Part shown: positions 3,274-63,977 of the stretch, piece by piece
How the letters are laid out: every line of letters starts with the position of its first letter
How positions within the stretch are numbered: position 1 is the first letter of the stretch
NCBI RefSeq assembly: GCF_029201445.1
Contig: NZ_CP102381.1
Location: 434,001-498,000 of the forward strand
Reading direction: 5' to 3'
Source of the DNA: Thiomicrorhabdus lithotrophica
GTDB lineage: Bacteria; Pseudomonadota; Gammaproteobacteria; Thiomicrospirales; Thiomicrospiraceae
Length of the DNA stretch: 64,000 nucleotides
Notes under the pieces: generated by a model
Seen by the model: the letters and a program-made list of their open reading frames with translations, nothing else
What the model was told of the DNA's origin: nothing
Databases searched by the model: none
Translations under genes and position numbers: made by a program

Positions 3274-4050
3274 ATGTTTGATACTCATTGTCACCTCGAC
3301 AAACTTTTTGATCATTTTCAATCTAACAATTTAAAAATCAATTTCACTTCTAGTAGTATTCCACAGATATTAAAAGATTCTAGTCATTATTATTTATCAG
3401 TTTCTACTTCGGTATCTGATTGGCAAGCTGTTTTAGATATTTCATCACGTTTTGAACAGGTATATGCTGCTTTAGGGCTACACCCTTGGTTTGTTACAAC
3501 AGATTCTTTAACGACAATAGATCAGCTTCATAATCTCCTAAGTTCAAATCAAGTTCATGCGATTGGAGAAATCGGTTTAGATTTCAGTTATGAATACAAA
3601 AATAATGCACAAAATCAACTTGAAGCGTTTAGTAAACAGCTGACCATAGCCAGAAAATCTGATTTGCCAGTTTCAATGCATTTAGTTAAATCACATAATG
3701 AAGCACTTCATGAACTGAAGAAGATCCCGGTAAACGGTGTGGTTCATGGATTAGGTACAAGTGTTGAAATGGCACAGCATTATGTAGATTTAGGGTTAAA
3801 GATTGGTGTTAATGGTGTGGTAGTACGAGAAAATGCAGCACGATATCAGCAACTTGTTAAATATTTTGGATTGGAGCATATAGTTCTTGAAACAGATTAT
3901 CCAAATGTGAAGTTACCAGGCCTGATAACTAGTCAGCTAGAAGACATTAATATTGTTGCTAATACGGTAGCTTCCTTGTTAAATACCTCTATTGAAGACG
4001 TGATAATGTCTACTGACCATAATGCTAAACAAATTTTCAATCCAGGATAA
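3274..4050 (+). CDS. TatD-family metal-dependent hydrolase
   Basis: A 258-residue TIM-barrel amidohydrolase of the TatD/YcfH/YjjV group, cytosolic metal-dependent nucleases or phosphoesterases whose exact substrate is uncertain. Metal ligands are visible: the N-terminal His-x-His in FDTHCHLD, the Glu in GEIGLD, a His in SMHLVKSH, a His in VVHGLG and the Asp in LETDYPN. The start was taken at the ATG giving MFDTHCHLD, which is standard for the family, although no clear Shine-Dalgarno sequence precedes it. Only three bases separate it from tcdA, so the two are probably cotranscribed. A near-perfect copy of the window's iterated palindrome lies in the codons for KLPGLIT. Confidence 0.9.
   Translation: MFDTHCHLDKLFDHFQSNNLKINFTSSSIPQILKDSSHYYLSVSTSVSDWQAVLDISSRFEQVYAALGLHPWFVTTDSLTTIDQLHNLLSSNQVHAIGEIGLDFSYEYKNNAQNQLEAFSKQLTIARKSDLPVSMHLVKSHNEALHELKKIPVNGVVHGLGTSVEMAQHYVDLGLKIGVNGVVVRENAARYQQLVKYFGLEHIVLETDYPNVKLPGLITSQLEDINIVANTVASLLNTSIEDVIMSTDHNAKQIFNPG
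3911..3930. repeat. Iterated palindrome copy 1, variant, in the TatD-family gene
   Basis: Core CAGGCCTG at 3917-3924. The surrounding 20 bases are palindromic with one mismatched pair. Reads Pro-Gly-Leu in the host gene. Confidence 0.85.
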
Positions 4051-4053
4051 ATA

Positions 4054-4779
4054 ATGAATATTGAAAACCCTTTATACGAGCGTAGCTTACTTGTCTTTGA
4101 AGAGCAGGGTGTTAAACAGCTTATCGAATCTCATATTTTAATAGCTGGCGTTGGAGGTGTTGGCGGTTTTGTCATTGAAGCTTTAGCTCGAGCTGGTGTT
4201 GGTGAATTAACTATAGTAGATCATGATGATGTTTCGCCATCTAATAAGAATCGTCAAATAATCGCATTAGATTCTACTCTCGGACAAAATAAGGCTGAGG
4301 TTATGGCTAACCGTATTCTGGATATTAATCCTGACTGTAAGGTTAATATTGTTACATCTTTTTTAAAACCAGAGGATATGGCTCCATTATTAGCGAATGG
4401 TTTTGATTACGTCGTTGATGCTATAGATAGCTTAAATTGTAAAGCAAATTTAGTTATTACGGCTTATGAGCTAGGAATCCCAGTTGTATCAAGTATGGGT
4501 GCTGGTCGTAGGGTGGATCCTAGTAAGATTGAATTAGCGGATATTTCTAAAACCCATGGCTGTGCTTTAGCACGTAACATGCGCCAACGGCTTAAGAAGC
4601 AACGCATAAAAAAAGGAGTTATGACGGTTTTCTCAACTGAAACTCCTAAAGAACCGGGTCCTATGGAAGAAATTGAAGGTGCTCGAGGTCGTGTAGTCAA
4701 TGGCACAGCGAGTTATATGCCTGGCATATTCGGTTTGATGCTTGCTGGTTATGTAGTAAATGCTATTGTTAATAAATAA
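4054..4779 (+). CDS. tcdA: TcdA-type tRNA threonylcarbamoyladenosine dehydratase (ThiF/E1-like)
   Basis: TcdA uses ATP to cyclise t6A at position 37 of ANN-decoding tRNAs. The 241-residue protein has the ThiF/E1-like Rossmann nucleotide site GVGGVGGFVIEALAR near residue 30, the following acidic strand VDHDDVSPSNKNRQ, the DAIDSLNCKA segment, and the block SSMGAGRRVDPSKI with DISKTHGCALAR that separates TcdA from ThiF and MoeB. It lacks the CxxC zinc pairs of ThiF/MoeB, as expected. It is slightly shorter than the E. coli protein (about 268) because the C-terminal end is trimmed. It follows the TatD-family gene by three bases and precedes the SulP gene by 21. Confidence 0.9.
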   Translation: MNIENPLYERSLLVFEEQGVKQLIESHILIAGVGGVGGFVIEALARAGVGELTIVDHDDVSPSNKNRQIIALDSTLGQNKAEVMANRILDINPDCKVNIVTSFLKPEDMAPLLANGFDYVVDAIDSLNCKANLVITAYELGIPVVSSMGAGRRVDPSKIELADISKTHGCALARNMRQRLKKQRIKKGVMTVFSTETPKEPGPMEEIEGARGRVVNGTASYMPGIFGLMLAGYVVNAIVNK

Positions 4780-4800
4780 ACTGTATAAACCAAGGAAACT

Positions 4801-6525: not shown

Positions 6526-7331
6526 TTCACAAAAGGGAAAAGTCCAGACTGGTTAACTTGAATGTGTGCTTTTTCAATAATACCAGCACGCTCAAACTTT
6601 TCAATCAGTTGCCTAATAATTGGTTGGCTTTTAGCTCTATTCATACCAGCCTTTAATTGGGGGTCATAGAGTATTTTTAATAACATATAGTCTAGGCCAG
6701 TTAAAAGCTCAACTTTGCTCGCGTCATTAGCAATACTGGGGTGAACCCAGTCAGAATCATTAGGTAATCCCAGCACTTGAGTCGATTCTTCTACAATACA
6801 AGCAACTAACAGTCCTCTACTAAAGACATGATCTACTGGTAAAACAATTTCTGCACTTATTATTTCATTTTTACTGTTCGTTTTGAATGAACCCATACAG
6901 TTACTATCACGTTGGATATTTTTAACGGAGGTATGAGTAAATTTTTTAATTACTTTGCCGTAATGTTTATCAGAGGTTAAGTGAATGGTTAAGTTATTTG
7001 CTTGTGCGCTTTTACTGATAGGTAACTGAGTAATGTCAGCTAGATGTTTTAGGTGTGCGTCAAATAACTCTTCAACTAAAGTGTTTTTTGGCATTTGATG
7101 ATAATGGAATGCATATCGAATAGGCTTTTGCCATTTGAGTATGCGTTGCGCTGTTTTTCTATATTCATTTTTTAAAGCAATTTCATTGAAGGCTTTTTGA
7201 ATATAGTTTGAATTTTGCCAATTTAAATTCTGATTTTCAGTGGCATAAGTTGGTAGTTGCCACATTAACAATGAAAACCCCAATACTATTTTTAGTGATT
7301 GGATTACTGAAATGGTATTGGGGTTTAGCAT
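6522..7331 (-). CDS. Exported DUF2927-like protein of unknown function
   Basis: A 269-residue protein with a likely signal peptide (hydrophobic residues about 12-27, ending LPTYATEN). The C-terminal half shows the pattern of the DUF2927 family: ACIVEESTQVLGLPNDSD, then a conserved SIANDASKVELLTGLDYMLL-like stretch and LYDPQLKAGMN. The EE pair and spacing are faintly metalloprotease-like, but I would not assign an activity. It lies 33 bases after uvrA on the same strand, and nearly the whole spacer is one copy of the iterated palindrome. No separate Shine-Dalgarno is visible; the AGG of the palindrome sits nine bases before the ATG and may serve. Confidence 0.75.
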   Translation of the reverse strand: MLNPNTISVIQSLKIVLGFSLLMWQLPTYATENQNLNWQNSNYIQKAFNEIALKNEYRKTAQRILKWQKPIRYAFHYHQMPKNTLVEELFDAHLKHLADITQLPISKSAQANNLTIHLTSDKHYGKVIKKFTHTSVKNIQRDSNCMGSFKTNSKNEIISAEIVLPVDHVFSRGLLVACIVEESTQVLGLPNDSDWVHPSIANDASKVELLTGLDYMLLKILYDPQLKAGMNRAKSQPIIRQLIEKFERAGIIEKAHIQVNQSGLFPFVN

Positions 7332-7334
7332 CTT

Positions 7335-7346
7335 ACCAGGCCTGGT
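7335..7346. repeat. Iterated palindrome copy 2, perfect, between uvrA and the DUF2927-like gene
   Basis: ACCAGGCCTGGT, 18 bases beyond the uvrA stop codon and three bases before the start codon of the next gene. Confidence 0.9.
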
Positions 7347-7364: not shown

Positions 7365-10172
7365 CTAAAGCAGGTTTTTTAAATAGAAACCAGTGTGTGA
7401 TTCTTTACAGGCCGCAACCGTTTCTGGTGTGCCGGTAGCAACAATCTGTCCACCGCCTGAACCGCCTTCAGGCCCTAGATCAACAATCCAGTCTGCCGTT
7501 TTAATTACATCTAAGTTGTGTTCAATAATCACAATGGTATTGCCTTGGTCACGGAGGTGGCGAATAACCGTCAGTAACAGTTCAATATCGTGAAAATGTA
7601 GTCCTGTAGTCGGTTCATCTAGAATATATAAGGTATTGCCTGTATCACGCTTAGACAATTCTTTAGCTAACTTGACGCGTTGTGCTTCACCACCAGAAAG
7701 GGTTGTGGCACTTTGACCTAGTTTTATATAGCCTAAACCTACTTCCATTAACATCTGCAATTTACGAGCGATAACAGGAATGACATCAAAGAACGCACGA
7801 GCATCCTCAACGGTCATCTCAAGAATCTCGTGGATATTTTTGCCCTTGTACTGCACTTGTAATGTTTCACGATTATAACGAGCGCCTTTACACACATCAC
7901 AAGGCACGTAAACATCAGGTAAGAAGTGCATTTCTACTTTTAAAACCCCATCACCTTGGCAGGCTTCACAGCGTCCACCTTTCACGTTGAAGCTGAATCG
8001 GCCAGGCGTATAACCACGTGCACGTGATTCAGGTGTGGCTGAAAGCAGCTCACGAATGGGTGTGAATAACCCGGTATAAGTGGCAGGGTTTGAGCGAGGT
8101 GTGCGACCGATTGCAGATTGGTCAATGTTTACCGCTTTGTCAAAGTGTTCCATGCCAGCCATACTTTTATAAGGTGCAGGTGTGTGCTGCGCACCATTTA
8201 ATAAATTGGCAGATAGCTTGGATAAGGTGCCGTTGATTAAAGTAGATTTACCTGAACCGGAAACCCCCGTTACACAAGTTAGCAGGCCTGCTGGAATATT
8301 GAGAGTAACATCTTGTAGATTATTGCCACTCGCACCGGTGATGGTTAACCACTTGTCTTCATTAGGTTCTAAACGTTCACCAGGCACTTCTATTTTTCGA
8401 GTGCCTTTTAAGAACTGTCCGGTTAAAGAATCTGGATTATTGGTCACTTCTTCTGGCGTACCTTCCGCCATAATGCGGCCGCCATGAATACCTGCACCAG
8501 GGCCAATGTCTAATACATAGTCCGCAGCACGAATCGCATCCTCATCGTGCTCTACCACAATCACGGTATTACCTAAATCTCGCAAATGAGTAAGAGTACC
8601 TAATAAACGGTCATTATCTCGTTGATGAAGCCCGATTGAAGGCTCATCTAAAACGTACATCACACCTACCAGGCCTGCTCCAATTTGGCTAGCCAATCGA
8701 ATACGTTGTGCTTCACCACCGGATAATGTGTCGGCACTGCGATTAAGCGTTAAATAGTTTAAACCGACATTCACTAAGAAAGTCAGGCGGTCATGAACCT
8801 CTTTAACAATCTTGCTGGCAATTTCACCTTTAGCGCCTTCAAGTGTTAAGGTACTGAAAATTTCATGGAGCTCACCAACAGGCAAAGCCGTTAAAGAGGG
8901 CAAAGTTCTGTTATCAACAAAAACATTGCGTGCCGCTTCGTTTAAACGCGTTCCATGACAACTTTTACAAGGCGTGGTGACACGATACTTTTCTAATTCA
9001 TCACGGACAGCCTTGCTCTCAGTTTCAGCAAAGCGGCGCTCCATGTTAGGGATTACACCCTCAAAACGGCGAGTGTCGCTGTATTTTCCATGCGGTAAAG
9101 GAATTTTTTCTTTACCTGAGCCAAAAAGAATAATTTTACGGTGCTGTTCTTGCAAAGATTCCCAAGGTTCTTCGACATCAAAACCATAATAATCTGCTAA
9201 GGCTTTAAGTAAATCGTAATAGTATTTGTGGCGTCTATCCCAACCACGAATTGCACCTCCCGCTAAACTCAACTCAGGGTGAGTAATGACACGTGCAGCA
9301 TCAAAACTGTCTTTGATTCCTAAGCCATCACACGTTGGGCAAGCGCCATGAGGATTGTTGAACGAGAAAATGCGTGGTTCTAACTCTGGAACACTGTAGC
9401 CACAATGAGGACAAGCAAACTTTTCTGAGAAAAGTAGCGCGAAGTCATCATCTTCATCCATTGGTAATACTTGAGCCAAACCTTCGGCTAACCGTAACGC
9501 CGTTTCAAACGATTCTGCCAAGCGCTGTTTAATATCATCACGCACTTTAAAACGATCAACAATGACTTCAATGTCATGCTTTTTGTTTTTATCTAACTGA
9601 ATGGTGCCGTCTAAATCGCATACTTTGCCATCGATACGGGCACGAATAAAACCTTGAGCCTGTAGTTCATCTAAAAGATGGTGATGTTCACCTTTTTTGC
9701 CACGAACAATAGGCGCAATCAGTAAGCATTTACTGCCTTCAGGCAAGGTAAGGGTATGGTCAACCATTTGACTCACTGTTTGCGCTTCTAAATCACAACC
9801 ATGCGTTGGACAGCGTGGCGTACCGGCACGCGCATACAGTAAACGTAGGTAATCGTAAATTTCAGTGACCGTTCCTACGGTTGAACGTGGGTTGTGTGAA
9901 GTTGATTTTTGTTCAATAGAAATGGCTGGCGAGAGGCCTTCAATATGGTCAAGATCAGGCTTTTCCATTACCGATAAAAACTGGCGAGCATAAGCTGAAA
10001 GAGACTCAACATAACGGCGTTGGCCTTCGGCATAAATGGTATCAAAAGCAAGTGAAGATTTACCAGAACCTGACAGGCCTGTAATTACAATTAACTTGTC
10101 TCGAGGAAGGGTAACATCAATGTTTTTTAAGTTATGGGTACGAGCACCGCGGATAACAATTTCTTCGAGCAT
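7365..10172 (-). CDS. uvrA: UvrABC system protein A (excision repair ATPase)
   Basis: UvrA recognises helix-distorting DNA lesions and loads UvrB in nucleotide excision repair. The 935-residue protein has both ABC modules: Walker [15 protein letters not shown] near the N-terminus and [13 protein letters not shown] in the second half, each with a signature [12 protein letters not shown] or [12 protein letters not shown]. Zinc-binding CxxC pairs are visible ([35 protein letters not shown]). Length is normal. An extended -10 promoter lies just upstream. I saw no LexA-type operator, so SOS control is not shown. Three relaxed palindrome copies fall in its codons for AGL, AGLV and TGLS. Confidence 0.97.
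8281..8292. repeat. Iterated palindrome copy 3, variant, in uvrA
   Basis: AGCAGGCCTGCT, a self-complementary 12-mer with C and G exchanged at the second and eleventh positions. Reads Ala-Gly-Leu-Leu. Confidence 0.75.
8668..8679. repeat. Iterated palindrome copy 4, variant, in uvrA
   Basis: ACCAGGCCTGCT, core perfect, one outer pair broken. Reads Ala-Gly-Leu-Val on the coding strand. Confidence 0.7.
10073..10082. repeat. Iterated palindrome copy 5, core only, in uvrA
   Basis: ACAGGCCTGT, a 10-base palindrome inside the first Walker A codons (Thr-Gly-Leu-Ser). Conservation of the Walker motif could explain this one without invoking the repeat. Confidence 0.5.
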
Positions 10173-10259: not shown

Positions 10260-10285
10260 ACAACTTACCAGGCCTGGTAAGTTGT
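10260..10285. repeat. Iterated palindrome copy 6, perfect, symmetry extended to 26 bases
   Basis: The 12-mer sits at 10267-10278, with unbroken dyad symmetry to 26 bases. It begins seven bases beyond the stop of the SIMPL-domain gene and upstream of the uvrA promoter. As RNA it could fold into an 11-pair stem with a GGCC loop, but no T run follows. Confidence 0.92.
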
Positions 10286-10292: not shown

Positions 10293-11015
10293 TTAATTTG
10301 GCAACAGAACCGTGCCAGAAATGGTTACTTTCAATTTGCTTTGTCCTGCTTTAACCGATGGGGCGGCCATGTCTGAAGCCATCATAGCCATCTCTGAACG
10401 TGCATACATCGGGCGAGGAGAAACCGCATTTGGCATATTGATTCGAGTTTCTAAGATTTTATAGGAAGGTGCTTGAAAACCTTGTGCAATACGATTGGCT
10501 TGATTTCTGAATTTAAGAATAGCGCGATCGGTTAACTGTGCGAGGATTTTATCCTGCAAGTCATCAGAAACTCCAAACTGCATGGATTGATAAGCTAGGT
10601 AAGGTTGGATTTTGGTCAATACTTTTACCAGGCCTGGTTTATTTTCTAACGTTAAGACTAAACTCTGTTGTCCGCGCCAATGGCTCATTACCTGCTTTTT
10701 ATAAACAGGATGAATATTGTATTGTGCGGTCTGAGTAATAATTTCTGGGTAAGCTTTCAAAGCTCTAACAGCCGCTTGCATTTTTTGGTTGATTTCATTC
10801 GCCACCGCTTGTGGAGAGGCTCCCTCTGACACTCGGTTGAATGTCATAGAAATAGTATCATTAGGTACACTTTGAGATTCAGTAATAGAGAACTGAACCT
10901 CATTACCTTGGTTGAGTTCAACGGCAGTCTGAGCTTGTACGTTTGAACTCAAGAATAAAAAGCTAGATAGAAAAGCTAAAATAAATTTGTTTCTGTTTAA
11001 ACTAAAAAAATGCAT
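10293..11015 (-). CDS. Exported SIMPL-domain (DUF541) protein
   Basis: A 240-residue periplasmic protein with a clear signal peptide (hydrophobic residues about 12-27, cleavage likely after SNVQA). The body matches the SIMPL/DUF541 family: N-terminal strand VQFSITESQSVPNDTISMTF, the ANEINQKMQAAVRALKAYPEI helix split across two stretches, QTAQYNIHPVY, and a C-terminal strand KLKVTISGTVLLP. The family includes E. coli YggE, linked to oxidative stress, but its biochemical role is unknown. It stands alone on the minus strand, divergent from the YajR-like gene. A perfect palindrome copy is in frame at NKPGLVKV. Confidence 0.82.
   Translation of the reverse strand: MHFFSLNRNKFILAFLSSFLFLSSNVQAQTAVELNQGNEVQFSITESQSVPNDTISMTFNRVSEGASPQAVANEINQKMQAAVRALKAYPEIITQTAQYNIHPVYKKQVMSHWRGQQSLVLTLENKPGLVKVLTKIQPYLAYQSMQFGVSDDLQDKILAQLTDRAILKFRNQANRIAQGFQAPSYKILETRINMPNAVSPRPMYARSEMAMMASDMAAPSVKAGQSKLKVTISGTVLLPN
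10627..10638. repeat. Iterated palindrome copy 7, perfect, inside the SIMPL-domain gene
   Basis: ACCAGGCCTGGT reading Pro-Gly-Leu-Val in the host frame, 349 bases from copy 6. Confidence 0.9.
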
Positions 11016-18263: not shown

Positions 18264-19313
18264 TTATCTATTCAACTCGTTATAGATGTTTCTGGCGTTT
18301 CTTTCGTACAGTTCTTTGTAAGCAGGGCGGTCTTTATGCTTGGATTGGTCAATGTTTTTAACATCATCTACCGTACCGCCTTGTTTCATGAATTCTTTGA
18401 CTTGTTGGGCTAATTCTACAAAATAGTCATAGGTTTGTTTTTTAATAACTTGGGCATTCGCGGGGTTGCCGTGGCCTGGAATCATGAGAGTGTCTTGGTT
18501 GGTTAGCACCATCATTTTGTCAAACGATTCCATCCATTCAACATAACTACCATCTTCGAACAGGCCTGGTAATCTCTCATTGAACCCTAAGTCTCCACTA
18601 AAAATAATATTACGAGACGGAATGTATGCACCTGTCATGGTTGGGGTATGGCCACCGCCAAAGTTGATCAGTTGAACGTGTTCACCTTTGCCAACATCTA
18701 TTGTTATTTGATTTTCAAATGTAGTGTAGTCTTTGGCTGCATTGGTTGAGTAACTATTAATGACACTGCCAATTGAACGAGTGTATCTCCGTTTAGATTT
18801 GGCAAAATTTTTGTTCCAGTATTGGGTGGCGGCTTTTTCAGAGTAGATGTTTTTGACCCCAATATCGCGCCAGTAACTGGCACCCATATTTGCATGACCT
18901 TGATAGTTTTCAATTGCGACCCATTTAACTGGCTTGTTGGTGAATTTTTTTAAGGCTTGATGAAAACTGTAGGCGACCGCTTCATTCGGACCTGAGTTGT
19001 AAACAAAAACGCCGTCTTCAAAAATTACTGCACTCATATTGTTGTTAAAGCCAAAGTTGCCGGGCGTGCCCCATATCATGCTGCCCACGGAAGTATAAAC
19101 TCCAGGTGCAATCTTCTGTAATTTTGGAATTGGCAAGGTTTTACCAATGTATCCGAGCTTTTTTTCCAGTGCGCTGACTTCTGTAGCATAATCAGGGTAA
19201 GCTTCGCTAAAAGAGTCGGCGTAGACAGAAGATGATGCAGCTGCTGGGTTCGTCAGTAATAAAACAGAAATGGTAGCTAAGTTTATAAACGGATTTTTTA
19301 GTTTGTTTATCAT
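18264..19313 (-). CDS. Exported metallo-beta-lactamase-fold protein with altered metal site
   Basis: A 349-residue protein with a signal peptide (about 1-26, ending NPAAASS). The fold is the metallo-beta-lactamase type: GGGHTPTMTG carries the third-motif His, IIFSGDLGF the bridging Asp and MIPGHGNP the last His. The first motif, normally HxHxDH, reads ENYQGH, so only its last His remains. Loss of three ligands suggests a changed metal centre or a non-hydrolytic role. It starts four bases after the outer membrane channel gene and ends the efflux operon, an unusual place for this fold. A palindrome copy encodes RLPGLFE. Confidence 0.8.
   Translation of the reverse strand: MINKLKNPFINLATISVLLLTNPAAASSSVYADSFSEAYPDYATEVSALEKKLGYIGKTLPIPKLQKIAPGVYTSVGSMIWGTPGNFGFNNNMSAVIFEDGVFVYNSGPNEAVAYSFHQALKKFTNKPVKWVAIENYQGHANMGASYWRDIGVKNIYSEKAATQYWNKNFAKSKRRYTRSIGSVINSYSTNAAKDYTTFENQITIDVGKGEHVQLINFGGGHTPTMTGAYIPSRNIIFSGDLGFNERLPGLFEDGSYVEWMESFDKMMVLTNQDTLMIPGHGNPANAQVIKKQTYDYFVELAQQVKEFMKQGGTVDDVKNIDQSKHKDRPAYKELYERNARNIYNELNR
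18559..18570. repeat. Iterated palindrome copy 8, variant, in the MBL-fold gene
   Basis: AACAGGCCTGGT; core at 18561-18568. Reads Pro-Gly-Leu on the coding strand. Confidence 0.7.
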
Positions 19314-19316: not shown

Positions 19317-20768
19317 CTATTTCCCTTGTAACGCTTTATCTTGGCTTTCTTTCCAATTACCACCCAATGCTTTGTATAAATTAACCAAAGCGGATGAGTG
19401 ATTTCGTTTCATTGTGACCTGAGCTAACTCTGAATTAAATAAATTACGTTGTGCATCCAATACTTCTAAGTAGCTTGAGTAACCTGCATCAAATCGTGTT
19501 TGCGATAACTGCAAAATTTGCTTAAGTGCAGTGACTTGGCGTTGCTGTGCTTCAAGTTGTTTAGTGCTGGCTTTAAGCTGGGTTAAGGCATCCAAAACTT
19601 CTTTAAAAGCGTTACGTAGGGTTTGTTGGTACTGTATCGTCATAGCTTGTTGTTGCGTTTCAGACAGTTGCACTTGAGATTGACGTTTTCCGTAATCAAA
19701 AATTGGCGCGTTAATCGCTGCAGACGCATTCCAACCAATTGATTGATCACTAAACAACTGATTCAACGATTCACTTTGAAAACCTAGCAGGCCTGTTAAG
19801 CTTATAGACGGAAAAAGTGATGCTTTCGCCACTCCGATATTCGCATTAGCGGCAATCAGTCGTTGTTCCATAGCAACAATGTCTGGACGACGCTCAATCA
19901 GTTTAGAAGAGAGTCCTTCAGGCACGGGTAAGCTATCAAAAGTACTAAGTTCTTTGGTTTTGAATGTGTCTGAAGTCATTTCAACCAATGATTTTGCTGA
20001 ACGACCTACTAAAACGGCTAGGGCATTCAGTTGTAAATCACGTTGTTCAAGCTGCTGTTGCAAGGCAATTTCAACCGCTGCTAATTCTGATTCTGCTTGG
20101 TGAACATTTAGCGGTGTGGTTGAACCATATTCCAACTGAGTTTGTCTAAGTTCAAGTGTCTCTTTACGAGATTTAACGGTGTTTCCCGCCAAGCGAACAG
20201 TTTGGTTTAATGCCATTAAATTGAGATAAGCATTAGCCACAGCTGCCGAAACGGTTAATTTAACGGTTTTTTGATCGGCTTGCGTAGCAGAGTAGGCGGC
20301 CTGAGCTTGTTGTTTGAGTGCATCGACTCTGCCCCAAATATCTAACTCATAGCTTAATAATGCCCCTAAAGAAAATTGTCCAAAGGTTGCGCCAGTATCT
20401 AAAGGGTACACATTATCGTTGGTTTGCGTTCTTGCTAATTCACCGCTCATATTCAGCTCTGGATATTGTGCTGACTTACTTTGCTGTAATAGCAAACGCG
20501 CTTGCTCTAAGTTGAGTCTAGCTAGCTGAATATCACTATTGTGTAAAAGTGCTTCATTCGTTAACTCAAACAAGGTTTGGTCGCCTGAAAGTTGCTCAAA
20601 CCAACTTTTCTCATCCAAGCCTAATTGCATTGGGATATTCGCTTGGTGCTGTTGCAAACTCTGTTGAGTAGGCAGCTCTGTTTTAGGTTTTTGATAAGTG
20701 GGTATTTGACTACAACCTGTCAGCAGCATGATAGGAATGAGAGTCGAAATGGTGAATATTTTTTTCAT
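19317..20768 (-). CDS. Outer membrane efflux lipoprotein (NodT/OprM family)
   Basis: A 483-residue TolC-like channel that would link the RND pump to the outside. A lipobox (IMLLTGCSQ) near residue 19 marks lipidation. Two repeats of the outer membrane efflux domain follow, rich in Gln/Ala coiled-coil helices, with the typical ELDIWGRVDALKQQAQAAY, RRPDIVAMEQRLIAANANIG and FDAGYSSYLEVLDAQR stretches. Its first base overlaps the end of the RND pump gene, so coupled translation is likely. The set adaptor-pump-channel is complete in this operon. Substrates cannot be read from sequence. Confidence 0.93.
   Translation of the reverse strand: MKKIFTISTLIPIMLLTGCSQIPTYQKPKTELPTQQSLQQHQANIPMQLGLDEKSWFEQLSGDQTLFELTNEALLHNSDIQLARLNLEQARLLLQQSKSAQYPELNMSGELARTQTNDNVYPLDTGATFGQFSLGALLSYELDIWGRVDALKQQAQAAYSATQADQKTVKLTVSAAVANAYLNLMALNQTVRLAGNTVKSRKETLELRQTQLEYGSTTPLNVHQAESELAAVEIALQQQLEQRDLQLNALAVLVGRSAKSLVEMTSDTFKTKELSTFDSLPVPEGLSSKLIERRPDIVAMEQRLIAANANIGVAKASLFPSISLTGLLGFQSESLNQLFSDQSIGWNASAAINAPIFDYGKRQSQVQLSETQQQAMTIQYQQTLRNAFKEVLDALTQLKASTKQLEAQQRQVTALKQILQLSQTRFDAGYSSYLEVLDAQRNLFNSELAQVTMKRNHSSALVNLYKALGGNWKESQDKALQGK
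19786..19797. repeat. Iterated palindrome copy 9, variant, in the efflux channel gene
   Basis: AGCAGGCCTGTT; core at 19788-19795. Reads Thr-Gly-Leu-Leu. Confidence 0.65.
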
Positions 20769-23700
20769 TACTTAGACTCCTGAATTTTCTTTGAACCAAA
20801 ACGTTCTGAAAACGCGGCTACCCAGCGGAAAAACATGGGTATAAATAGTGGCGCAAATAAGGTGGCGGCAATCATTCCACCTACCAGGCCTGTTCCAACG
20901 GCTTGACGAGCCGCTGCACCGGCACCCGTACTTAACATGAGTGGAATCGCAGCAATGGTGAAAGCTAAAGAGGTCATAACAATCGGTCTAAATCTCAGTC
21001 TAGCAGCTGTTTCAGCTGCTTCTGCGAGAGGCATACCTTGTTTGTGCTTTTGCATACCTACTTCCACAATTAAGATGGCATTCTTGGCGGATAATCCAAT
21101 GAGAGTGAGTAATCCAAGCTGGAAATAAATATCATTTTGTAACCCACTTAAACTGACTGCTAGCGTTGCGCCCAATACCGCAAACGGTACCGCTGTTAAT
21201 ACAGCAATCGGAATTGACCAGCGTTCATATTGCGCGGCAAGAATTAAGAAAACAAACAATAAACCAAATAAGAAGGCCTGATTGCCAGAGCTTGATGACT
21301 GTTTCTCTTGATAGGCTTCACCCACCCAACCAAGACTGTAACCTTCAGGCATGACTTCATTAGCCACTTCTTCAAATGCCGCAATCGCTTGTCCTGAACT
21401 ATAACCAGGAGCAGGTTCTCCCATCAATTTAGCCGCTGGGAAAAGGTTGAAACGATCAATAACATCCGCACCTGTTAATCTTTTAACACTGACTAATGAA
21501 CTTAATGGAATCATGTGGCCTGTCTGGGCGCGTACAAAGACTTGCGCTAAATCTTCAGGTTTTTCACGGTAGTTGGCTTCTGATTGTAGATTAACCTTGT
21601 AGGTTCTTCCATATAAGTTGAAGTCATTCACGTAAAGCGTTCCGAAAGTGGCTTGCATCGCTGAAAAAACATCATTCACAGGCACTTGCATTGCTTGTGC
21701 TTTTTCACGATCCAGCTTCACTTCGTATTGTGGAACCTTAGTTGAAAAAGTGGTTCTGACTGAAGCTAGCTCAGGTCGTGCTGTGGCTTTAGCAATGAGT
21801 TCATCCGTTGTTTTGGAGAGGGCTAAGGAGCCATCACCATTACGGTTTTGTAAGTAGGCTTCAAATCCGCCTGTCATACTCATACCCATAATGGTCGGCA
21901 TGCCTATTGGAATACTAAAGGCATCTGGAATCGCCATTAACTGCCCAAATAATTGGCCAACAATAGCAGGTGAGCTCTCATTGGGTTCTTGACGTTCATC
22001 CCAGTGTTTTAAACTTACAAAAGAGACCGCAGAATCGGTTTTATTGGTAAAGGTTTGTAAGTCAAAACCGGCAAAGCTAATGGCATGGTCTACGCCTGCG
22101 TGTTGGCGTAACATCTCTGATGTTTGATCACGAACCACTTCAGTTCTTGCCAGAGAAGAGGCTGGTGGCAGGTAGTTAAGAACAAACAATGTACCTTTAT
22201 CTTCTTGTGGCAATAGTCCTTTAGGTAAGCCACCTAAAGATTGATAAGTGATAAATACCAGGCCACCAAAAAGTAACACGCTTATTAAGCTATAGCGCAT
22301 AACAGTTCTTACCCCTAAGGTAAAGCCGTTAGTGGTGGCGGTAAAGAATCGATTGAACTGGTAAAAGAATCCACTGGTTTTAGTCTGTACAGGTTTGAGT
22401 AAATTGGCACACAATGCAGGAGTCAAAGTTAAAGCAACCAAACCAGAGATGGTGACTGAGATAACAATGGTAATGGCAAACTGTCTATACATTTGACCCG
22501 TCAGGCCCTCGATAAAGGCAACCGGTATAAATACTGCTCCTAAAACAAGTACGATGGCGACAATCGGACCAGTAATTTCACTCATGGCTTTAATCGTCGC
22601 TTCTCGTGCCGAAAGGTTCTCTGAGTGCATAATACGTTCAACGTTTTCGACCACAATAATCGCATCATCCACCACTATACCAATGGCGAGTATCATGCCA
22701 AACAGTGTCAGCTGGTTGATTGAGAAACCAAGTAGATACATACCCACAAAGGTACCGATAATCGACACAGGAATGGCTAAGACTGGAATCAAGGTGGCAC
22801 GCGCATTTTGCAAAAATAAGAACACCACTAACACTACTAAAATCAAGGCTTCAAACAGCGTGTAGATAACTTTTTCAATAGAGATATTAACAAATTCTGT
22901 CGTGTCATATGGCACAGCATAATCTAACCCATTTGGAAAATTATTGGATAACTCAGCCAATTTGCTATCAATTAAATCAGAAGTTTCTAGGGCATTAGCA
23001 CCTGGTTTTAAAAAGACACCGATTGGCACGGTTGGCTTGCCATCAAAGGTGGCGTTGAAGCTGTAATCTTGTGCCCCTAATTCAATACGAGCTACATCTT
23101 TTAGACGTAACGCATTACCGTCACTTTCAGCTCTAAGAATAATATTCTCAAATTGTTCGGGTTCAGATAATCGGCCTTCGGTGGTAACCGTGTAAGTAAA
23201 CGCTTGCGCGTTTTGCATTGGCTCTTGACCAAAACGCCCCGCAGCAAATTGTGAGTTTTGCGATTGTATTGCTTGGTAAACATCGTTTGGCGTAAGCTTA
23301 TATTGAGCGAGTTTATTAGGTTCTAGCCACACACGCATCGAGTAATCTTTGGCGCCAAATTGACGCGCTTCACCTACACCTGGAATACGAGCCAATTCAT
23401 CTAAAACGTTAATTAGGCCATAGTTGGCAATGAATACCGTATCAAGAGAGGAGTCATCAGAATACAAAGCGATGACTTTTAAAATACTTGAGGATTTTTT
23501 ATTGACCTGTACACCCGCACGTTGCACCTCGCTTGGTAGTTTGCTTAAAGCCCCTTGCACTTTATTGTTTACATTGATGTTGGCTTGATCAATGTCCGTA
23601 CCAATCTTAAAGGTAACAGTGAGCGTTAAGGTACCAGAAGAGGAAGTCACCGAGTTGATGTATAGCATATCATCTATGCCGTTAATCGCCTGTTCTAAGG

Positions 23701-26001: not shown

Positions 26002-26019
26002 TCTACCAGGCCTGGTAGA
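26002..26019. repeat. Iterated palindrome copy 11, perfect, symmetry extended to 18 bases
   Basis: The 12-mer at 26005-26016 lies inside an 18-base palindrome that directly abuts the stop codon of the symporter gene. The rest of the 25911-26001 gap shows nothing else. Confidence 0.92.
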
Positions 26020-32492: not shown

Positions 32493-32508
32493 TTACCAGG
32501 CCTGGTAA
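32493..32508. repeat. Iterated palindrome copy 13, perfect, 16 bases
   Basis: TTACCAGGCCTGGTAA, three bases beyond the stop codon of the patatin-like gene. Confidence 0.92.
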
Positions 32509-35971: not shown

Positions 35972-35985
35972 TACCAGGCCTGGTA
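35972..35985. repeat. Iterated palindrome copy 14, perfect, 14 bases, upstream of the rplU promoter
   Basis: TACCAGGCCTGGTA, ending 24 bases before the -35 box of rplU. It is the one intergenic copy lying between divergent genes and could touch RNA polymerase or an UP element. Confidence 0.92.
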
Positions 35986-36984: not shown

Positions 36985-38070
<1,086 letters not shown>

Positions 38071-41724: not shown

Positions 41725-41754
41725 ATTAAAGTTACCAGGCCTGGTAACTTTAAT
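41725..41754. repeat. Iterated palindrome copy 16, perfect, symmetry extended to 30 bases
   Basis: The 12-mer at 41734-41745 is the centre of an unbroken 30-base palindrome, the longest in the window. It lies between the groESL terminator and the GST-like gene, 29 bases before that start codon. Confidence 0.95.
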
Positions 41755-41783: not shown

Positions 41784-42539
41784 ATGGAAAAGTATCCTGT
41801 TTTATATTCTTACCGACGCTGTCCTTATGCGATGCGTGCACGTATGGCTATTGCGTATTCTGGAATTCAGGTTGAGCAGCGTGAGATTGTTTTTTGGGAA
41901 AAGCCTGCTGAAATGTTGGAGGCTTCGCCAAAAGGAACAGTGCCGGTGCTGATTTTGACGGATGGCAGTGTAATTGATGAAAGTCGAGACATTATGCTTT
42001 GGGCATTAAATAGTATGAGTTCAGAAAGGAAAAGTAATTCAGACCAGGCCTGGTTGTTTAGTGAAAACAGTTTATTTGATAAGAAAGTAAACGACTGGAT
42101 TGACCTTTGTGATAATGAGTTTAAACGGCATTTAGATCATTATAAATATGCAGACCGTTTTCCAGAACAGAGTAAACAAAGCTATCGGGAGCAAGGCTGC
42201 AAGTTTTTAACAAGGATTGAAAACCAACTTGCGGAGAATTCTCAAATTGGCTGTCATTCTGAGTTTGGTCTGATTGAGAATAGAGTTTCCATGGCTGATA
42301 TAGCATTGTTTCCATTTGTCCGCCAGTTCGTTAATGTTGATAAAGAATGGTTTTCAAAGGCAGACTATGTTCATGTTAAGCCCTGGCTTAAGCAAAATAT
42401 AGAATCGAAATGGTTTACAGCTATCATGAAAAATCGTCCTGTATGGAAAGCTGGTCAGCAACCATTGTGGGTTGATGAACCTGAGTTAACTAATAAGGCT
42501 GAGTTTACTGCCAAAGCAAATTCTAAATTTTTTCTTTAG
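41784..42539 (+). CDS. Glutathione S-transferase-like thioredoxin-fold protein
   Basis: A 251-residue cytosolic protein with an N-terminal thioredoxin-fold GST domain (residues 1-80: LYSYRRCPYAMRARMAIA, then GTVPVLILTDGSVIDESRDI) and an all-helical C-terminal domain. The Cys in RRCPY sits where omega-class and glutaredoxin-like GSTs keep the catalytic residue, so disulfide or dehydroascorbate-type chemistry is more likely than classic conjugation. It stands alone. A perfect palindrome copy lies in codons DQAWLF, one of only two coding copies not read as x-Gly-Leu. Confidence 0.85.
   Translation: MEKYPVLYSYRRCPYAMRARMAIAYSGIQVEQREIVFWEKPAEMLEASPKGTVPVLILTDGSVIDESRDIMLWALNSMSSERKSNSDQAWLFSENSLFDKKVNDWIDLCDNEFKRHLDHYKYADRFPEQSKQSYREQGCKFLTRIENQLAENSQIGCHSEFGLIENRVSMADIALFPFVRQFVNVDKEWFSKADYVHVKPWLKQNIESKWFTAIMKNRPVWKAGQQPLWVDEPELTNKAEFTAKANSKFFL
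42043..42054. repeat. Iterated palindrome copy 17, perfect, in the GST-like gene
   Basis: ACCAGGCCTGGT read as Gln-Ala-Trp, about 300 bases from copy 16. Confidence 0.88.
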
Positions 42540-44426: not shown

Positions 44427-45470
44427 ATGTCAAAAGTAAAAATTGGAATAGTGGGTGGTACAGGTTATACCGGAGTAGAGTTGCTACGTTTACTGGCAAA
44501 CCATCCAAATGCAGAGGTTATGGCAATTACTTCAAGAAGCGAAGCGGGTATGCCTGTAGCAGAAATGTTTCCTAACTTACGCGGTTTTTATGATTTAGCT
44601 TTTTCTGAGCCTAAAGCTGATGTATTAGCTGCTTGTGATGTGGTGTTTTTTGCTACACCCCACGGTGTAGCAATGGATATGACCCCCGAGCTAATCGAGG
44701 CGGGTGTAAGAGTGATTGATTTGGCGGCAGATTTTCGTATTAGTGATTTAGAAGTTTGGGAATCATGGTATGGGATGCCACACGGTTGTCCAAATATTAT
44801 GGATGAAGTGGTTTATGGTTTACCAGAAATGTATCGTGAGAAAATTAAAAAGGCAAAAGTTATCGCTAATCCTGGTTGTTATCCCACTGCAGTTCAACTT
44901 GGTTTTCAACCTTTGCTTAAAGCAGGCCTGGTAGATATTGATCACCTTATTGCAGATGCTAAATCTGGGGTGAGTGGAGCCGGGCGAGGAGCAAAAGTAG
45001 GTTCTTTAGCTGCTGAAACCAGTGAAGGTTTTAAAGCTTATGGCGTGAACGGTCATCGCCACTTGCCAGAGATTGTTCAAGGTTTGGATCGAATGATTGA
45101 TGGTAAAGTTAACCTAACTTTTGTGCCGCATTTAATCCCGACTATTCGTGGTATTGAAGCCACTTTGTACGGTAAGTTAACGCGTAATGTATCTCAAGAA
45201 GAGCTTCAAGAACTGTTTGAAAATACTTATGCAGAAGAGCCTTTTGTAGATGTGATGCCAGCTAATAGCTTGCCAGACACGCGTTTAGTTAAAGGTTCAA
45301 ATATGTGTCGTATGGCTGTCTATCGCCCAGTTGGAGGTGATGTGGTTGTGGTAACTTCTGTCATAGATAACTTGGTTAAAGGAGCGGCTGGTCAAGCTGT
45401 TCAGAATATGAATATCATGTTTGATTTAGAAGAAGATGCAGGTTTAAAGCATGTTGCATTACTTCCTTAA
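44427..45470 (+). CDS. argC: N-acetyl-gamma-glutamyl-phosphate reductase
   Basis: ArgC reduces N-acetylglutamyl phosphate with NADPH in arginine synthesis. The 347-residue protein has the NADP loop [17 protein letters not shown], the catalytic Cys in [13 protein letters not shown] and a conserved [10 protein letters not shown]. Length is standard. No other arg gene is in the window. A relaxed palindrome copy is in frame at KAGLVD. The next gene, erpA, has its own promoter. Confidence 0.96.
44921..44932. repeat. Iterated palindrome copy 18, variant, in argC
   Basis: AGCAGGCCTGGT; core at 44923-44930. Reads Ala-Gly-Leu-Val. Confidence 0.65.
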
Positions 45471-49895: not shown

Positions 49896-50150
49896 TTAAG
49901 CTAGTTTTACTTGAATGGTAATGTCGCATCCATACTCTGTTGGCACCGTATTTATAAGTTGATGTTTATTGACTTTGGTCCAGCTTGAAATGTCTTTTTC
50001 AGCCCCAGTATCGGTACAAGCAATGCATATCAAATCACCAGGCCTGCTCTTTCTGACTTGTTGCTGTAATTTTATGACAGGCATTGGGCATTTTAGGCCT
50101 TTGGCGTCAACTAAAATGGTATTGGAGGAGTCGGTTGTTTCTAAGCTCAT
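49896..50150 (-). CDS. TusA/SirA-like sulfur carrier protein
   Basis: A small cytosolic sulfurtransferase-like protein. The 84 residues contain the defining Cys-Pro-x-Pro motif (DAKGLKCPMPVIKLQQ) and the DTGAEKDISSWTKVN segment. TusA relays sulfur for tRNA thiolation, and TusA-like proteins also feed sulfur oxidation in Thiomicrospira-type bacteria, so both roles are open. The ATG at 50150 (MSLETT) has AGGA six bases ahead; two upstream in-frame ATGs are less well placed. It is divergent from glyQ. Its codons SRPGDL hold a variant palindrome in the uncommon frame. Confidence 0.88.
   Translation of the reverse strand: MSLETTDSSNTILVDAKGLKCPMPVIKLQQQVRKSRPGDLICIACTDTGAEKDISSWTKVNKHQLINTVPTEYGCDITIQVKLA
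50037..50048. repeat. Iterated palindrome copy 19, variant, in the TusA-like gene
   Basis: ACCAGGCCTGCT; core at 50039-50046. Read as Ser-Arg-Pro-Gly, outside the usual frame. Confidence 0.65.
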
Positions 50151-50237
50151 ATTCATTCCTATGTCATTCAGGCCAATAAACTTTAAAACGAGAGTGCTTT
50201 TCATCAAAAAAAGTCACATCTATTGGATTTTTGTGCG

Positions 50238-51334: not shown

Positions 51335-53406
51335 TGAGTATTCAAACAGAAGCATTTTTAGTTGAAATCGGAACCGAAGAGTTACCACCAAAAGCGCTAA
51401 ATAAATTAGCGAACGCATTTGCATCAGGGATTGAAGCAGGTCTGCAAGAAGCAGAGTTAGCTTATGGCGATATAACCATTTATGCGGCACCTCGTCGTTT
51501 AGCGGTGATGATTGATGCGATGCAATTAGAACAAGCGGATAAAGTGGTTGAGCGTAAAGGCCCAGCAAAAAAAGCAGGCTTTGATGCGGACGGCAATCCA
51601 ACTAAGGCATTACAAGGTTTTGCTCGTGGTTGCGGCGCCGCTGTTGAAGATTTAATTGAGATTGAAACCGATAAAGGTATCTGGATGGCTTACAACCTTG
51701 AGCAAAAAGGTCAACCAGCAACAGAGCTTTTACCGGATATTGTCAATCAGTCTTTAGCTAAACTTCCGATTCCTAAGCGTATGCGATGGGGAAGTTCAGA
51801 TGTAGAATTTGTTAGACCTGTTCATTGGGCATTAATGTTACTAGGTAGTGACATAGTTCCTGCCACTATCTTAGGTCATTCAACCTCTAATACTACGCAA
51901 GGCCACCGTTTCCATGCACCAGGCCTGCTAACTATTTCTAAGCCAAGTGAATATGCTAACAAGCTTGAAACAGAAGGTTATGTTTTAGCTGACTTTGCAA
52001 AGCGTTCAGCTCGCATTGAAAAACAAGTGATTGCAGCGGCTAAGAAAGCGGGTGGTAATGCGGTTATTGATGCTGACTTATTAGAAGAAGTGACTGCGCT
52101 AAACGAATGGCCTACTGCTGTGGTTGGTGAGTTTGATCAAACTTTCTTATCAGTTCCTGCTGAAGCTTTGGTCTCTGCAATGGCTGGACATCAAAAATAT
52201 TTCCATATGCTAGATAATGATGGAAAATTGATGGCTAACTTCATCACCATCAGTAATATTGAAAGTTCAAATCCAGAGTCGGTTAAATACGGTAATGAGC
52301 GTGTTATTCGTCCACGTTTAGCGGATGCTAAATTCTTCTGGGATCAAGATCGTAAACAGCCTTTAGATGATTTTTTACCAAGATTAAAAACCGTTGTTTT
52401 CCAACAGCAGTTAGGGACTTTGTTTGACAAGGTTGAGCGTTTAGAAACATTAAGTGTCAAAATTGGTAAGCCATTAGGTGTGGATGGTGCTTTTTGTGAG
52501 AGAGCTGCGCGTTTATCGAAGTGTGATTTGATGTCTGAAATGGTTGGCGAATTTCCTGATCTTCAAGGTGTTATGGGACGTTATTACGCAACGGCTCAAA
52601 ACGAACATGATAATGTTGCCGAAGCGATTGATGCTCAGTATCAACCACGTTTTGCAGGTGATAGCCTACCAGAGTCTGCAGTTGCACAATCTTTAGCGAT
52701 TGCCGATAAACTAGATACGATTACCGGTATTTACGGTATTGGTCAATTACCAACAGGTGATAAAGACCCGTTTGCTCTGCGTCGTGCCGCTTTGGGTCTG
52801 TTGCGTATTATGATTGAAAAAAATCTAGACTTGGATTTACGTCTGTTGATTCAATTTAGTTTAGAGCTGCACCCAAATGTGAAGTCTGATGATAAGTTAG
52901 TAGATGAAATTTATGACTTTATTGTGAGTCGTTTGCGTGCGTATTATGCCGATAAAGGGATTTCAGCAGAGCAGTTTGAAGCGGTACGTGTTTGTCGTCC
53001 TGCACATCCAATTGATTTTGCTCAGCGTATTGAAGCGGTTAAGCAGTTCAGTCAAATGGACGGTTCTGAGAGCTTGAGTGCAGCCAATAAACGTATTAGC
53101 AATATTCTCAAGAAAGTTGATGGTGCAATTGCTGAAACAGTTAATCCAGATCTATTTACTGAAGATGCAGAAACCAATTTATGGAATACTTTAGATGCTT
53201 TACGTGAAACGGTAAGTCAACAAATTGCTGGTCGTGACTATATTGCTGCCATCTCTGAACTATCAACGATTAGAGAAGCAGTAGACACTTTCTTTGATGA
53301 TGTGATGGTTATGGCGGATGATGAAGCCGTTAAGCAAAACCGCTTGGCGCTATTAAATCAGATTTATCAGTTGTTCTTACAAGTTGCGGATATTTCACGC
53401 CTGTAA
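51334..53406 (+). CDS. glyS: Glycyl-tRNA synthetase beta subunit
   Basis: The beta subunit binds tRNA-Gly and is needed for activity. The 690-residue protein starts with the family motif FLVEIGTEELPPKALNKLA, includes GPAKKAGFDADGNPTKALQGF split by the usual linker and has a C-terminal anticodon-binding-like helical domain (ANKRISNILKKVDG). Length is normal. It overlaps glyQ by one base. A variant palindrome is in frame at APGLLT. Confidence 0.96.
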   Translation: MSIQTEAFLVEIGTEELPPKALNKLANAFASGIEAGLQEAELAYGDITIYAAPRRLAVMIDAMQLEQADKVVERKGPAKKAGFDADGNPTKALQGFARGCGAAVEDLIEIETDKGIWMAYNLEQKGQPATELLPDIVNQSLAKLPIPKRMRWGSSDVEFVRPVHWALMLLGSDIVPATILGHSTSNTTQGHRFHAPGLLTISKPSEYANKLETEGYVLADFAKRSARIEKQVIAAAKKAGGNAVIDADLLEEVTALNEWPTAVVGEFDQTFLSVPAEALVSAMAGHQKYFHMLDNDGKLMANFITISNIESSNPESVKYGNERVIRPRLADAKFFWDQDRKQPLDDFLPRLKTVVFQQQLGTLFDKVERLETLSVKIGKPLGVDGAFCERAARLSKCDLMSEMVGEFPDLQGVMGRYYATAQNEHDNVAEAIDAQYQPRFAGDSLPESAVAQSLAIADKLDTITGIYGIGQLPTGDKDPFALRRAALGLLRIMIEKNLDLDLRLLIQFSLELHPNVKSDDKLVDEIYDFIVSRLRAYYADKGISAEQFEAVRVCRPAHPIDFAQRIEAVKQFSQMDGSESLSAANKRISNILKKVDGAIAETVNPDLFTEDAETNLWNTLDALRETVSQQIAGRDYIAAISELSTIREAVDTFFDDVMVMADDEAVKQNRLALLNQIYQLFLQVADISRL
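51918..51929. repeat. Iterated palindrome copy 20, variant, in glyS
   Basis: ACCAGGCCTGCT; core at 51920-51927. Reads Pro-Gly-Leu-Leu. Confidence 0.7.
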
Positions 53407-55599: not shown

Positions 55600-56394
55600 A
55601 TGTCTTTACTTCTGTTATCACACCTGCAAAAAAACAAAAAAAACAACGTACCAGGCCTGGTAGATCCACATTCAAATGAAGCTCAGCAGGTGAAGCGAAA
55701 TCGTTTATGGTTATTAACTTATATCTCGTTGTTTACCTCTTTATTAGCCTTTTTTATATTGATGATTACCTTAGTTGAGTTAGAGGGATCAACGCCAAAG
55801 CGTAACTATCAAAAATTAGTGGGTAAAATTTATAAAGAGGTAACGTATCAATCTACGCTGCAAGGTATCGATTGGTTGCAGATTGAAAATACCTTAACAA
55901 AAGGCGTGCGATTATCTATTCCTCCAGATCTAGTGGCAAATTCTTCTTTATTTTCTTCCGCTAGTGCTCAAATAAATCCAAGGTACCTTCCTTATTTACA
56001 GAGTATTGTTGATGTTTTAACCGCCTTGAATTTTCAAGACTTTAATACAAGACATGCAAAGTTAATAGATGGCATTGAATCGGCAGGTTATAAGGTTGAT
56101 TTTATGATTCGTGTTGAAGGGCATACCGACTCGCTTGTCATGGCGCCTACAGCTCGATTTAGAGATAATGTTGAATTGAGTACCTTTAGAGCCTACGCAA
56201 TGATGGAGTGGCTAAGGATTCATACTGGTTTAGCCAAAAATAAATTTGCTATATCCGGTTATGGTAGCTTTCATCCGTTAACAGTTAATTCAGAGCAGGC
56301 TGAAAACCGCAGAATAGAGATATATTTAGTGCCTTTAGTTAGGGTTAAAACGACAGGAAAAATTGACTTAGATAATGAAGAGCTTGTGTTATGA
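55600..56394 (+). CDS. MotB-like OmpA-domain protein lacking the ion-binding aspartate
   Basis: A 264-residue protein with one membrane helix (about 36-59) and a C-terminal OmpA-like peptidoglycan-binding domain (about 165-255: VEGHTDS, VELSTFRAYAMM, ISGYGSFHPL, NRRIEIYL). In the helix WLLTYISLFTSLLAFF, aligned by its Trp-Leu-Leu to the next gene, position 43 is Ser where MotB proteins have the essential Asp. It may be a structural partner in a mixed stator. A perfect palindrome copy interrupts the N-terminal cytosolic tail (VPGLVD, residues 17-22). It overlaps the next gene by four bases. Confidence 0.82.
   Translation: MSLLLLSHLQKNKKNNVPGLVDPHSNEAQQVKRNRLWLLTYISLFTSLLAFFILMITLVELEGSTPKRNYQKLVGKIYKEVTYQSTLQGIDWLQIENTLTKGVRLSIPPDLVANSSLFSSASAQINPRYLPYLQSIVDVLTALNFQDFNTRHAKLIDGIESAGYKVDFMIRVEGHTDSLVMAPTARFRDNVELSTFRAYAMMEWLRIHTGLAKNKFAISGYGSFHPLTVNSEQAENRRIEIYLVPLVRVKTTGKIDLDNEELVL
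55649..55662. repeat. Iterated palindrome copy 21, perfect, 14 bases, in the first MotB-like gene
   Basis: TACCAGGCCTGGTA read as Pro-Gly-Leu-Val in the cytosolic tail, a position with little structural constraint. Confidence 0.9.
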
Positions 56395-57136: not shown

Positions 57137-57150
57137 TACCAGGCCTGGTA
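57137..57150. repeat. Iterated palindrome copy 22, perfect, 14 bases, between converging genes
   Basis: TACCAGGCCTGGTA, 65 bases after the second MotB-like gene and before the chemoreceptor terminator. Confidence 0.92.
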
Positions 57151-60661: not shown

Positions 60662-60678
60662 CTTTAAAAGGTAGTAAT

Positions 60679-61335: not shown

Positions 61336-61398
61336 AATAATGTGATATCATTTTTAATTAATTTGTCTTTTGTCCATTTTATCACTAGGAATTATTCT

Positions 61399-63291: not shown

Positions 63292-63350
63292 GTCAATGCT
63301 TTTAGCTTTTTTATCAATATAATCTATTCAAAATAGTTTGATTCAACCTT

Positions 63351-63376
63351 AAAGCCCTAACGTGTTAGGGCTTTTT
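63351..63376 (+). terminator. Intrinsic terminator after parE
   Basis: AAAGCCCTAA pairs with TTAGGGCTTT over CGTG, followed by a T-rich run. Confidence 0.9.
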
Positions 63377-63395
63377 CTTTTTAGGAATATTAACA

Positions 63396-63977
63396 GTGAT
63401 AAAGTTATCTCAAGGAATCGTTAAACCCTTTTTAAGTGTTATTTTTTGTAGTTTATTCATCTTACCAGGCCTGGTAAGTTCAGCAGAAAGCCAAGTTGCT
63501 CAGGATTATCACATGAGTATCTATAAAGATGTGCAAGGCTCAACCGATGCAATTGAACTCTTTACTAAAGCGGAAGACAAACGTGTGTTTTTTGGTGTAA
63601 CGTGTTCACTACAGTCTGCTATGCCTTTGATTCAAGTTATTTTATTTGACGATGAAATAATGAGTGAAACACCGAAACTGTTGAGTATTAAAATTGAAAT
63701 AGACGGCAAAGCCCTGGCAGAAGAGCTACAAGGCATTATTAATGTCGTCGATAATACGGAAGAGCTGTCTAACAAGATAAGGCTAGAAATTGTCACCAAA
63801 CGCGGTGGGTCTTTTCAAGCATTACAAGAGGCTTATAAAGCAATGTTGATAACGATGCAGCAAGGCGAGGCTTTAAAGGTAACGCTGAGTCACCGTACAC
63901 TAGAAGCAAAAGAAATTACGTTTTCACTCAAAGGGTTAAAGCAATTGCTGCAATCTAATCAGGCTGTTTGTTATTAA
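63396..63977 (+). CDS. Exported orphan protein of 193 residues
   Basis: I do not recognise this family. It starts at a GTG with AGGA nine bases ahead. A signal peptide covers about 1-30 (VKPFLSVIFCSLFILPGLVS then SAES). The mature part has two cysteines (in FGVTCSLQ and near the end, QAVCY) that could form a disulfide, strands such as LLSIKIEIDGK and RLEIVTKRGG, and a late helix LKGLKQLL. It seems a small periplasmic domain of mixed alpha/beta type. The perfect palindrome copy forms the end of the signal peptide codons. The gene is complete, stopping 23 bases before the window end. Confidence 0.6.
   Translation: MIKLSQGIVKPFLSVIFCSLFILPGLVSSAESQVAQDYHMSIYKDVQGSTDAIELFTKAEDKRVFFGVTCSLQSAMPLIQVILFDDEIMSETPKLLSIKIEIDGKALAEELQGIINVVDNTEELSNKIRLEIVTKRGGSFQALQEAYKAMLITMQQGEALKVTLSHRTLEAKEITFSLKGLKQLLQSNQAVCY
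63461..63478. repeat. Iterated palindrome copy 23, perfect, 18 bases, in the exported orphan
   Basis: CTTACCAGGCCTGGTAAG read as Leu-Pro-Gly-Leu-Val-Ser at the end of the signal peptide. Confidence 0.92.

Follow-up and report, generated by a model that had tools for sequence, protein, structure and literature searches.

Hundreds of exact copies of a palindrome in Thiomicrospiraceae, spelled in dialects: a candidate DNA uptake sequence

Two families of uptake sequences, those of the Neisseriaceae (DUS) and of the Pasteurellaceae (USS), are described in the excerpted texts of PMC3630211 and PMC12616744. According to the first excerpt, the DUS of the Neisseriaceae occurs in dialects with a constant core, is missing from some family members and forms inverted pairs at terminators. 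For Simonsiella muelleri it gives 1294 DUS that overlap and have dyad symmetry, and in the Neisseriaceae it finds more one-off than perfect DUS (PMC3630211). Both known uptake systems show an enrichment of mismatched forms (PMC1939737, excerpt). The extended USS consists of a core with AT-rich flanks, likewise with dialects around a constant inner core (PMC12616744, excerpt). PpdA/ComN is its predicted receptor. A further repeat, HIP1 of cyanobacteria, is an exact, highly iterated palindrome that other palindromes replace in some relatives, and these alternate HIPs accompany matching methyltransferases (PMC4390886, excerpt).

In some sulfur-oxidising bacteria a short palindrome recurs in hundreds of exact copies along the chromosome, and its spelling varies between relatives. 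Judged by its sequence features, this palindrome appears to work like an uptake sequence while lying, by the features tested, outside the DUS and USS families. As far as the excerpts describe the DUS, the two share copy numbers of hundreds to thousands, dialects that keep one core, close kin that have no copies at all and intergenic inverted pairs, and the dyad-symmetric form of Simonsiella muelleri is a precedent for a palindromic tag. There are also differences. The constant part here is GGCC and not CTG as in GCCGTCTGAA (some dialects do contain CTG, ACCGGCCGGT does not), four of the five dialects are palindromic, one-off forms, common in the DUS, show no excess, and the ComP_DUS profile (PF16732) exceeded its cut-off in none of the 31 genomes searched. 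With the USS the palindrome shares AT-rich flanks and dialects with a constant inner core; however, the USS core is GCGG, non-palindromic and flanked on one side only, and a GCGG core is absent here. It resembles HIP1, as excerpted, in being an exact iterated palindrome that is swapped for other palindromes in some relatives. Unlike the HIPs, which pair with methyltransferases, it is found in seven genomes that lack the three methyltransferase families profiled, and one of its dialects is non-palindromic; the cyanobacterial sequence GCGATCGC is not the sequence here. An earlier note on this DNA had judged the palindrome to match neither HIP1 nor DNA uptake sequences.

The palindrome in the window and along the chromosome

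The window is a stretch of 64,000 nucleotides of Thiomicrorhabdus lithotrophica, positions 434001-498000 of a chromosome held in one contig of 2,516,205 bases (own genome, G000; other G-numbers denote the genomes compared). The 23 cores and 11 12-mers counted in the earlier note were recovered by matching: 23 matches to the core CAGGCCTG, spanning 3917 to 63473, against a shuffle mean of 0.60 and a largest value of 3 in 100 shuffles, and 11 matches to the 12-mer ACCAGGCCTGGT against 0 in shuffles. Counting in the complete genome and against a Markov model, both proposed in the earlier note, extended the enrichment beyond the window. The chromosome holds 881 cores and 454 12-mers, compared with 2 and 0 for the reversed controls, and a detail sample of 464 kb (the window and 20 stretches of 20 kb) contains 168 cores where an order-4 model expects 5.1.

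Outward from these 168 cores the flank columns read GTAAnTT and then fade, so that the full motif is AAnTTACCAGGCCTGGTAAnTT; flanks more than about 11 bases from the motif centre are unconserved, giving a symmetric footprint of about 22 bases. The 12-mer, previously taken as the full form, is thus enriched as claimed, but the motif extends further. Single-base variants of the core, summed over 12 classes, number 109 in the 464 kb against 98.8 expected, which is background level. Set beside the 168 cores, this means that the motif is either perfect or absent, and a population of decaying one-off copies was rejected because single-base variants show no surplus. This sharpness, exact copies with no one-off surplus, is the least explained fact about the motif.

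The palindromes had been described as occurring in genes of every function and on both sides of operons. Their spread is confirmed, but location matters. With ORFs called longest-first at 80 codons or more and without a gene finder, 109 sites of the 464 kb sample fall within ORFs, at 0.264/kb, and 59 in the gaps, at 1.164/kb, a ratio of 4.4 on these crude calls. Of the intergenic sites, 55 are flanked by two called ORFs and enter the counts by gap type, which, on the same crude calls, give 2.45/kb between converging, 1.01 between same-direction and 0.60 between diverging ORFs. Flanking AC and GT are both present at 47 of 59 intergenic sites compared with 35 of 109 genic ones, and the genic copies are mostly read in the frame nCA GGC CTG (73 of 109, the remaining two frames having 31 and 5).

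Within the window the sites, given without strand, lie both inside and between ORFs. Cores lie inside ORFs at 3917..3924 (ORF 3274-4050, +), 18561..18568 (18264-19313, -), 19788..19795 (19317-20768, -), 20885..20892 (20768-23893, -), 26560..26567 (26020-27453, -), 37673..37680 (37000-38070, +), 44923..44930 (44427-45470, +) and 51920..51927 (51334-53406, +), as well as in a uvrA-like ORF treated below; the core at 50039..50046 falls in a doubtful ORF (49896-50207, -) and is probably intergenic. Full 12-mers are found within ORFs at 10627..10638 (10293-11015, -) and 42043..42054 (41784-42539, +), and close to ORF starts at 55650..55661 (55600-56394, +) and 63464..63475 (63396-63977, +). Others sit between converging ORFs at 26005..26016 and 57138..57149, between diverging ORFs at 35973..35984, and in intergenic positions at 7335..7346 (flanking ORFs 6522-7331 and 7365-10172, both -) and 32495..32506. 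At two further intergenic 12-mers the arms pair, with 12 pairs outside GGCC at 10267..10278 and 17 at 41734..41745, where one mismatch was allowed.

Between ORFs such pairing exceeds chance. In the 464 kb together with additional stretches, flank positions 3-9 of 63 intergenic sites scored 231 against 190, a value that none of 5000 shuffles reached, whereas the 112 genic sites did not pair beyond chance (232 against 246). A long T run comes after some intergenic copies but not after others. We read this as intergenic copies doubling as RNA hairpins, which probably act at terminators.

The first 3.9 kb of the window had been reported free of the palindrome, and indeed positions 1-3916 contain none, the first site beginning at 3917. 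This sparsity continues upstream, where G000:414001-434000, occupied by rpoC, str, S10 and spc genes (names given from translations), contains a single site over 20 kb. The ribosomal and translation gene block formed by these two stretches is thereby near-empty, with 1 palindrome in 24 kb. Elsewhere the spacing of sites is near random, with a CV of 0.87 over 98 intervals in the first 288 kb, one giant-gene gap excluded. That gap, 27 kb free of sites at G000:150.7-177.6 kb, was considered as a possible island; this was rejected, as it is mostly one tandem-repeat giant protein gene. The gene is surface-protein-like, about 24 kb long (G000:C1 about 151.8-176.1 kb) and has zero palindromes, and its frame is broken at several points within the repeats, perhaps by assembly error.

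Dialects and conservation among relatives

Counts in related genomes, also suggested in the earlier note, revealed several core-rich relatives, others that are poor, and dialects around GGCC. The 32 genomes of Thiomicrorhabdus divide into 15 with 236-1173 cores and 17 with 3-74. Elsewhere in the family five genera were counted, three of them core-rich (409, 840, 668) and two poor (7, 10), and 21 genomes from other families hold 0-222 cores, the top genome having 91 for the control. Across 369 genomes drawn from the whole class, the 12-mer count is 454 in the own genome and 181 in G035, and none of the 365 genomes from other families exceeds 5. The exact 16-mer TTACCAGGCCTGGTAA was found in at least 119 stretches of genome contigs; among the 80 matches listed, 66 belong to Thiomicrorhabdus, Hydrogenovibrio or Thiomicrospira and 12 to unrelated groups such as Bacteroidetes.

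Dialects were determined from k-mer counts on samples of 20-400 kb per genome, and 15 sampled genomes carry one. D1, ACCAGGCCTGGT, is shared by G000, G014, G015, G018, G021, G027, G030, G033 and G036, and also by G035, where it is mixed with D5-like flanks. D2, AACAGGCCTGTT, is found in G005, G017 and G025; D5, AGCAGGCCTGCT, in G008; and D4, ACCGGCCGGT, with TAA-type flanks, in G023 (50 in 140 kb). D3, AACTCAACAGGCCGGGTA, is the asymmetric form, seen in G020 as 26 12-mers in 140 kb with each single-base variant at 2 or fewer. In the same genome AACAGGCCGG has 22 and 14 copies by orientation, and the asymmetric dialect forms two inverted pairs less than 30 bases apart. GGCC is constant in all five dialects. 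For G006, G007 and G009 the dialects rest on 1 to 3 sites. No comparable motif was detected in G003, G012, G013, G019 and G031 (140 kb each), in G010 and G024 (40 kb), or in 20 kb samples of G016, G026 and G029. As a separate observation, G017 has repeated oligomers, CGGATATATCC and ACATGGCCGCTAACCC-like, far above expectation besides its own dialect.

On a uvrA tree, which represents one gene with some low supports and leaves out G016 with its partial uvrA, D1 appears in the genus and in other genera, and D2, D3 and D5 fall into one group. D4 is nested among genomes that lack the motif, and the motif-free G003 stands beside motif-rich species. This pattern suggests that D1 was ancestral and that several losses followed.

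The uvrA-like ORF of the window (7365-10172, -) contains cores at 8283..8290, 8670..8677 and 10074..10081, corresponding to alignment columns 1939, 1552 and 133; the first is retained in 8 and the second in 9 of 29 uvrA orthologs. All 29 full-length orthologs align through the sites gaplessly and differ there by point changes, and the gap at an orthologous empty site that is the hallmark of an insertion or mobile repeat was not seen among them. This supports the earlier note, which had surmised from the lack of flanking repeats and target duplications that the palindrome is not an insertion element.

At orthologous positions D1 relatives retain 8 of 10 own sites in G014, 7/12 in G021, 4/7 in G015 and in G030, 4/6 in G009, 2/4 in G018 and 0/3 in G027, counts that are not independent, as the uvrA and comEC loci are common to several relatives. 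The baseline for all 8-mers in the same genome pairs is 8-17%, or 9-17% for the six relatives other than G027. Motif-free species retain 1/9 (G003), 0/6 (G013), 0/7 (G019) and 0/6 (G012), and genomes of other dialects 1/8 (G005), 3/4 (G017), 3/7 (G025) and 0/6 (G023).

Competence genes and the proposed uptake tag

ComEC was matched in all 18 motif-bearing and in 12 of 13 motif-poor genomes, and ComEA, at E <= 0.001, in 18/18 and 11/13. At the curated cut-off ComEA remains in 18 of 31 genomes (13/18 motif-bearing, 5/13 motif-poor); the own-genome match falls below it, with 48.6 against 53.1 bits. ComEC and ComEA do not separate motif-bearing from motif-poor genomes; under an uptake reading, the latter would need to have lost receptor specificity. 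Matches to GspH occur solely in three motif-poor genomes, and the search yielded no receptor candidate in motif-bearing ones. A four-pilin cluster was followed as a receptor lead and dropped as a type II secretion set, which we take to be gspG-J. The motif-free G003 has no match to this four-gene pseudopilin cluster, which is present in eight other genomes compared; this is probably unrelated.

The asymmetric-dialect genome G020 has a comEC frame of 594 residues, compared with 834-957 in 27 of the 29 other matched genomes and 675 and 708 in two. The frame breaks off in the last domain and adjoins a D12 methyltransferase gene (G020:C1 about 87-89 kb; comEC and the methyltransferase gene lie side by side on the local stretch, with frames at 745-2526 (-) and 350-1192 (+)), as if an element had entered comEC. 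A broken comEC counts against present uptake in this species, unless the break is recent. The dialect is exact despite the short comEC.

The palindrome is probably a DNA uptake sequence, by which cells would recognise DNA of their own kind during natural transformation. An uptake signal was among the functions that the earlier note had listed, and it is the best supported of them: a core held constant across dialects, AT-rich flanks, absence from some species, intergenic hairpins and inverted pairs, and ComEC and ComEA matches in every motif-bearing genome tested all agree with it. In such a system, a surface DNA receptor of a competence machinery of the type IV pilus type would prefer DNA with AAnTTACCAGGCCTGGTAAnTT, and tagged fragments would enter via ComEA and ComEC and then recombine. 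Biased uptake would act as a drive in which perfect copies keep replacing mutated ones. A shift in receptor specificity would shift the tag genome-wide, giving dialects around a constant GGCC, and tags would erode where specificity is lost. Copies between genes would have a second role as RNA hairpins, probably in termination.

More tentatively, with chances that we place just short of even, this would be a third, independently evolved means of self-DNA recognition for transformation, in the chemolithoautotrophic Thiomicrospiraceae. It would involve a palindromic tag, presumably read by a two-fold symmetric receptor unrelated to ComP, and at least five dialects, once turned asymmetric and several times lost. 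By title or abstract opening, no report of the motif or of uptake sequences in these bacteria appeared in the literature searched, which has most subscription journals outside it, and among the matches listed the papers with pieces of the motif do not contain the 12-mer. If this proposal is true, free-living sulfur oxidisers would join the known cases and offer independent replicates on why uptake sequences exist, on the co-change of receptor and tag and on what keeps tags exact over a whole genome, since one family would contain five dialects, an asymmetric form among them, and species lacking the tag. The missing surplus of one-off copies would make drive versus selection directly testable.

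Alternative explanations

The strongest rival is a chromosome-wide site for a dimeric organising, segregation or repair protein whose specificity drifts between species. Symmetry in four of five dialects with a symmetric footprint, the exactness of the motif and its spread along the chromosome would suit such a protein. Sites of this kind are known in tens of copies, far exceeded by the 881 found here, and an exact asymmetric form is kept in G020, several species have no such motif detected, and the bias to intergenic positions and hairpins is strong. The asymmetric dialect and near-random spacing also do not favour the nucleoid, segregation or repair site offered in the earlier note, and we regard this explanation as unlikely.

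The HIP1 parallel led us to examine methylation, that is, a repeat that arises or persists because a DNA methyltransferase or another DNA modification recognises the palindrome. The GC-rich exact palindromic core and the alternate palindromes of relatives recall the cyanobacterial case (PMC4390886, excerpt). Profiles of PF00145, PF01555 and PF02086 matched at least once in ten motif-bearing genomes, among them the own genome (PF00145 twice, PF02086 once). However, they gave zero matches in the motif-bearing G014, G017, G021, G023, G025, G027 and G033, which are 99-100% complete, and likewise in G009 (86% complete). There is thus no general need for methyltransferases of these families, which contradicts a methylation mark as the general explanation; a methyltransferase-linked HIP was set aside after these tests as improbable.

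If the sites were a family of terminators or RNA hairpins and the copies in genes were by-products, the density between converging ORFs and the arm pairing between ORFs would be accounted for. Against this, ORFs hold 109 of the 168 sites, and arms there do not pair beyond chance, genic sites are retained across species, and a terminator has no need of one exact core, so that we give this idea very little weight. A short mobile or inserted element, suggested by one exact sequence at high copy number, has next to no likelihood, being refuted at the uvrA sites by gapless alignment with point changes only and opposed by flanks that lose conservation about 11 bases from the centre.
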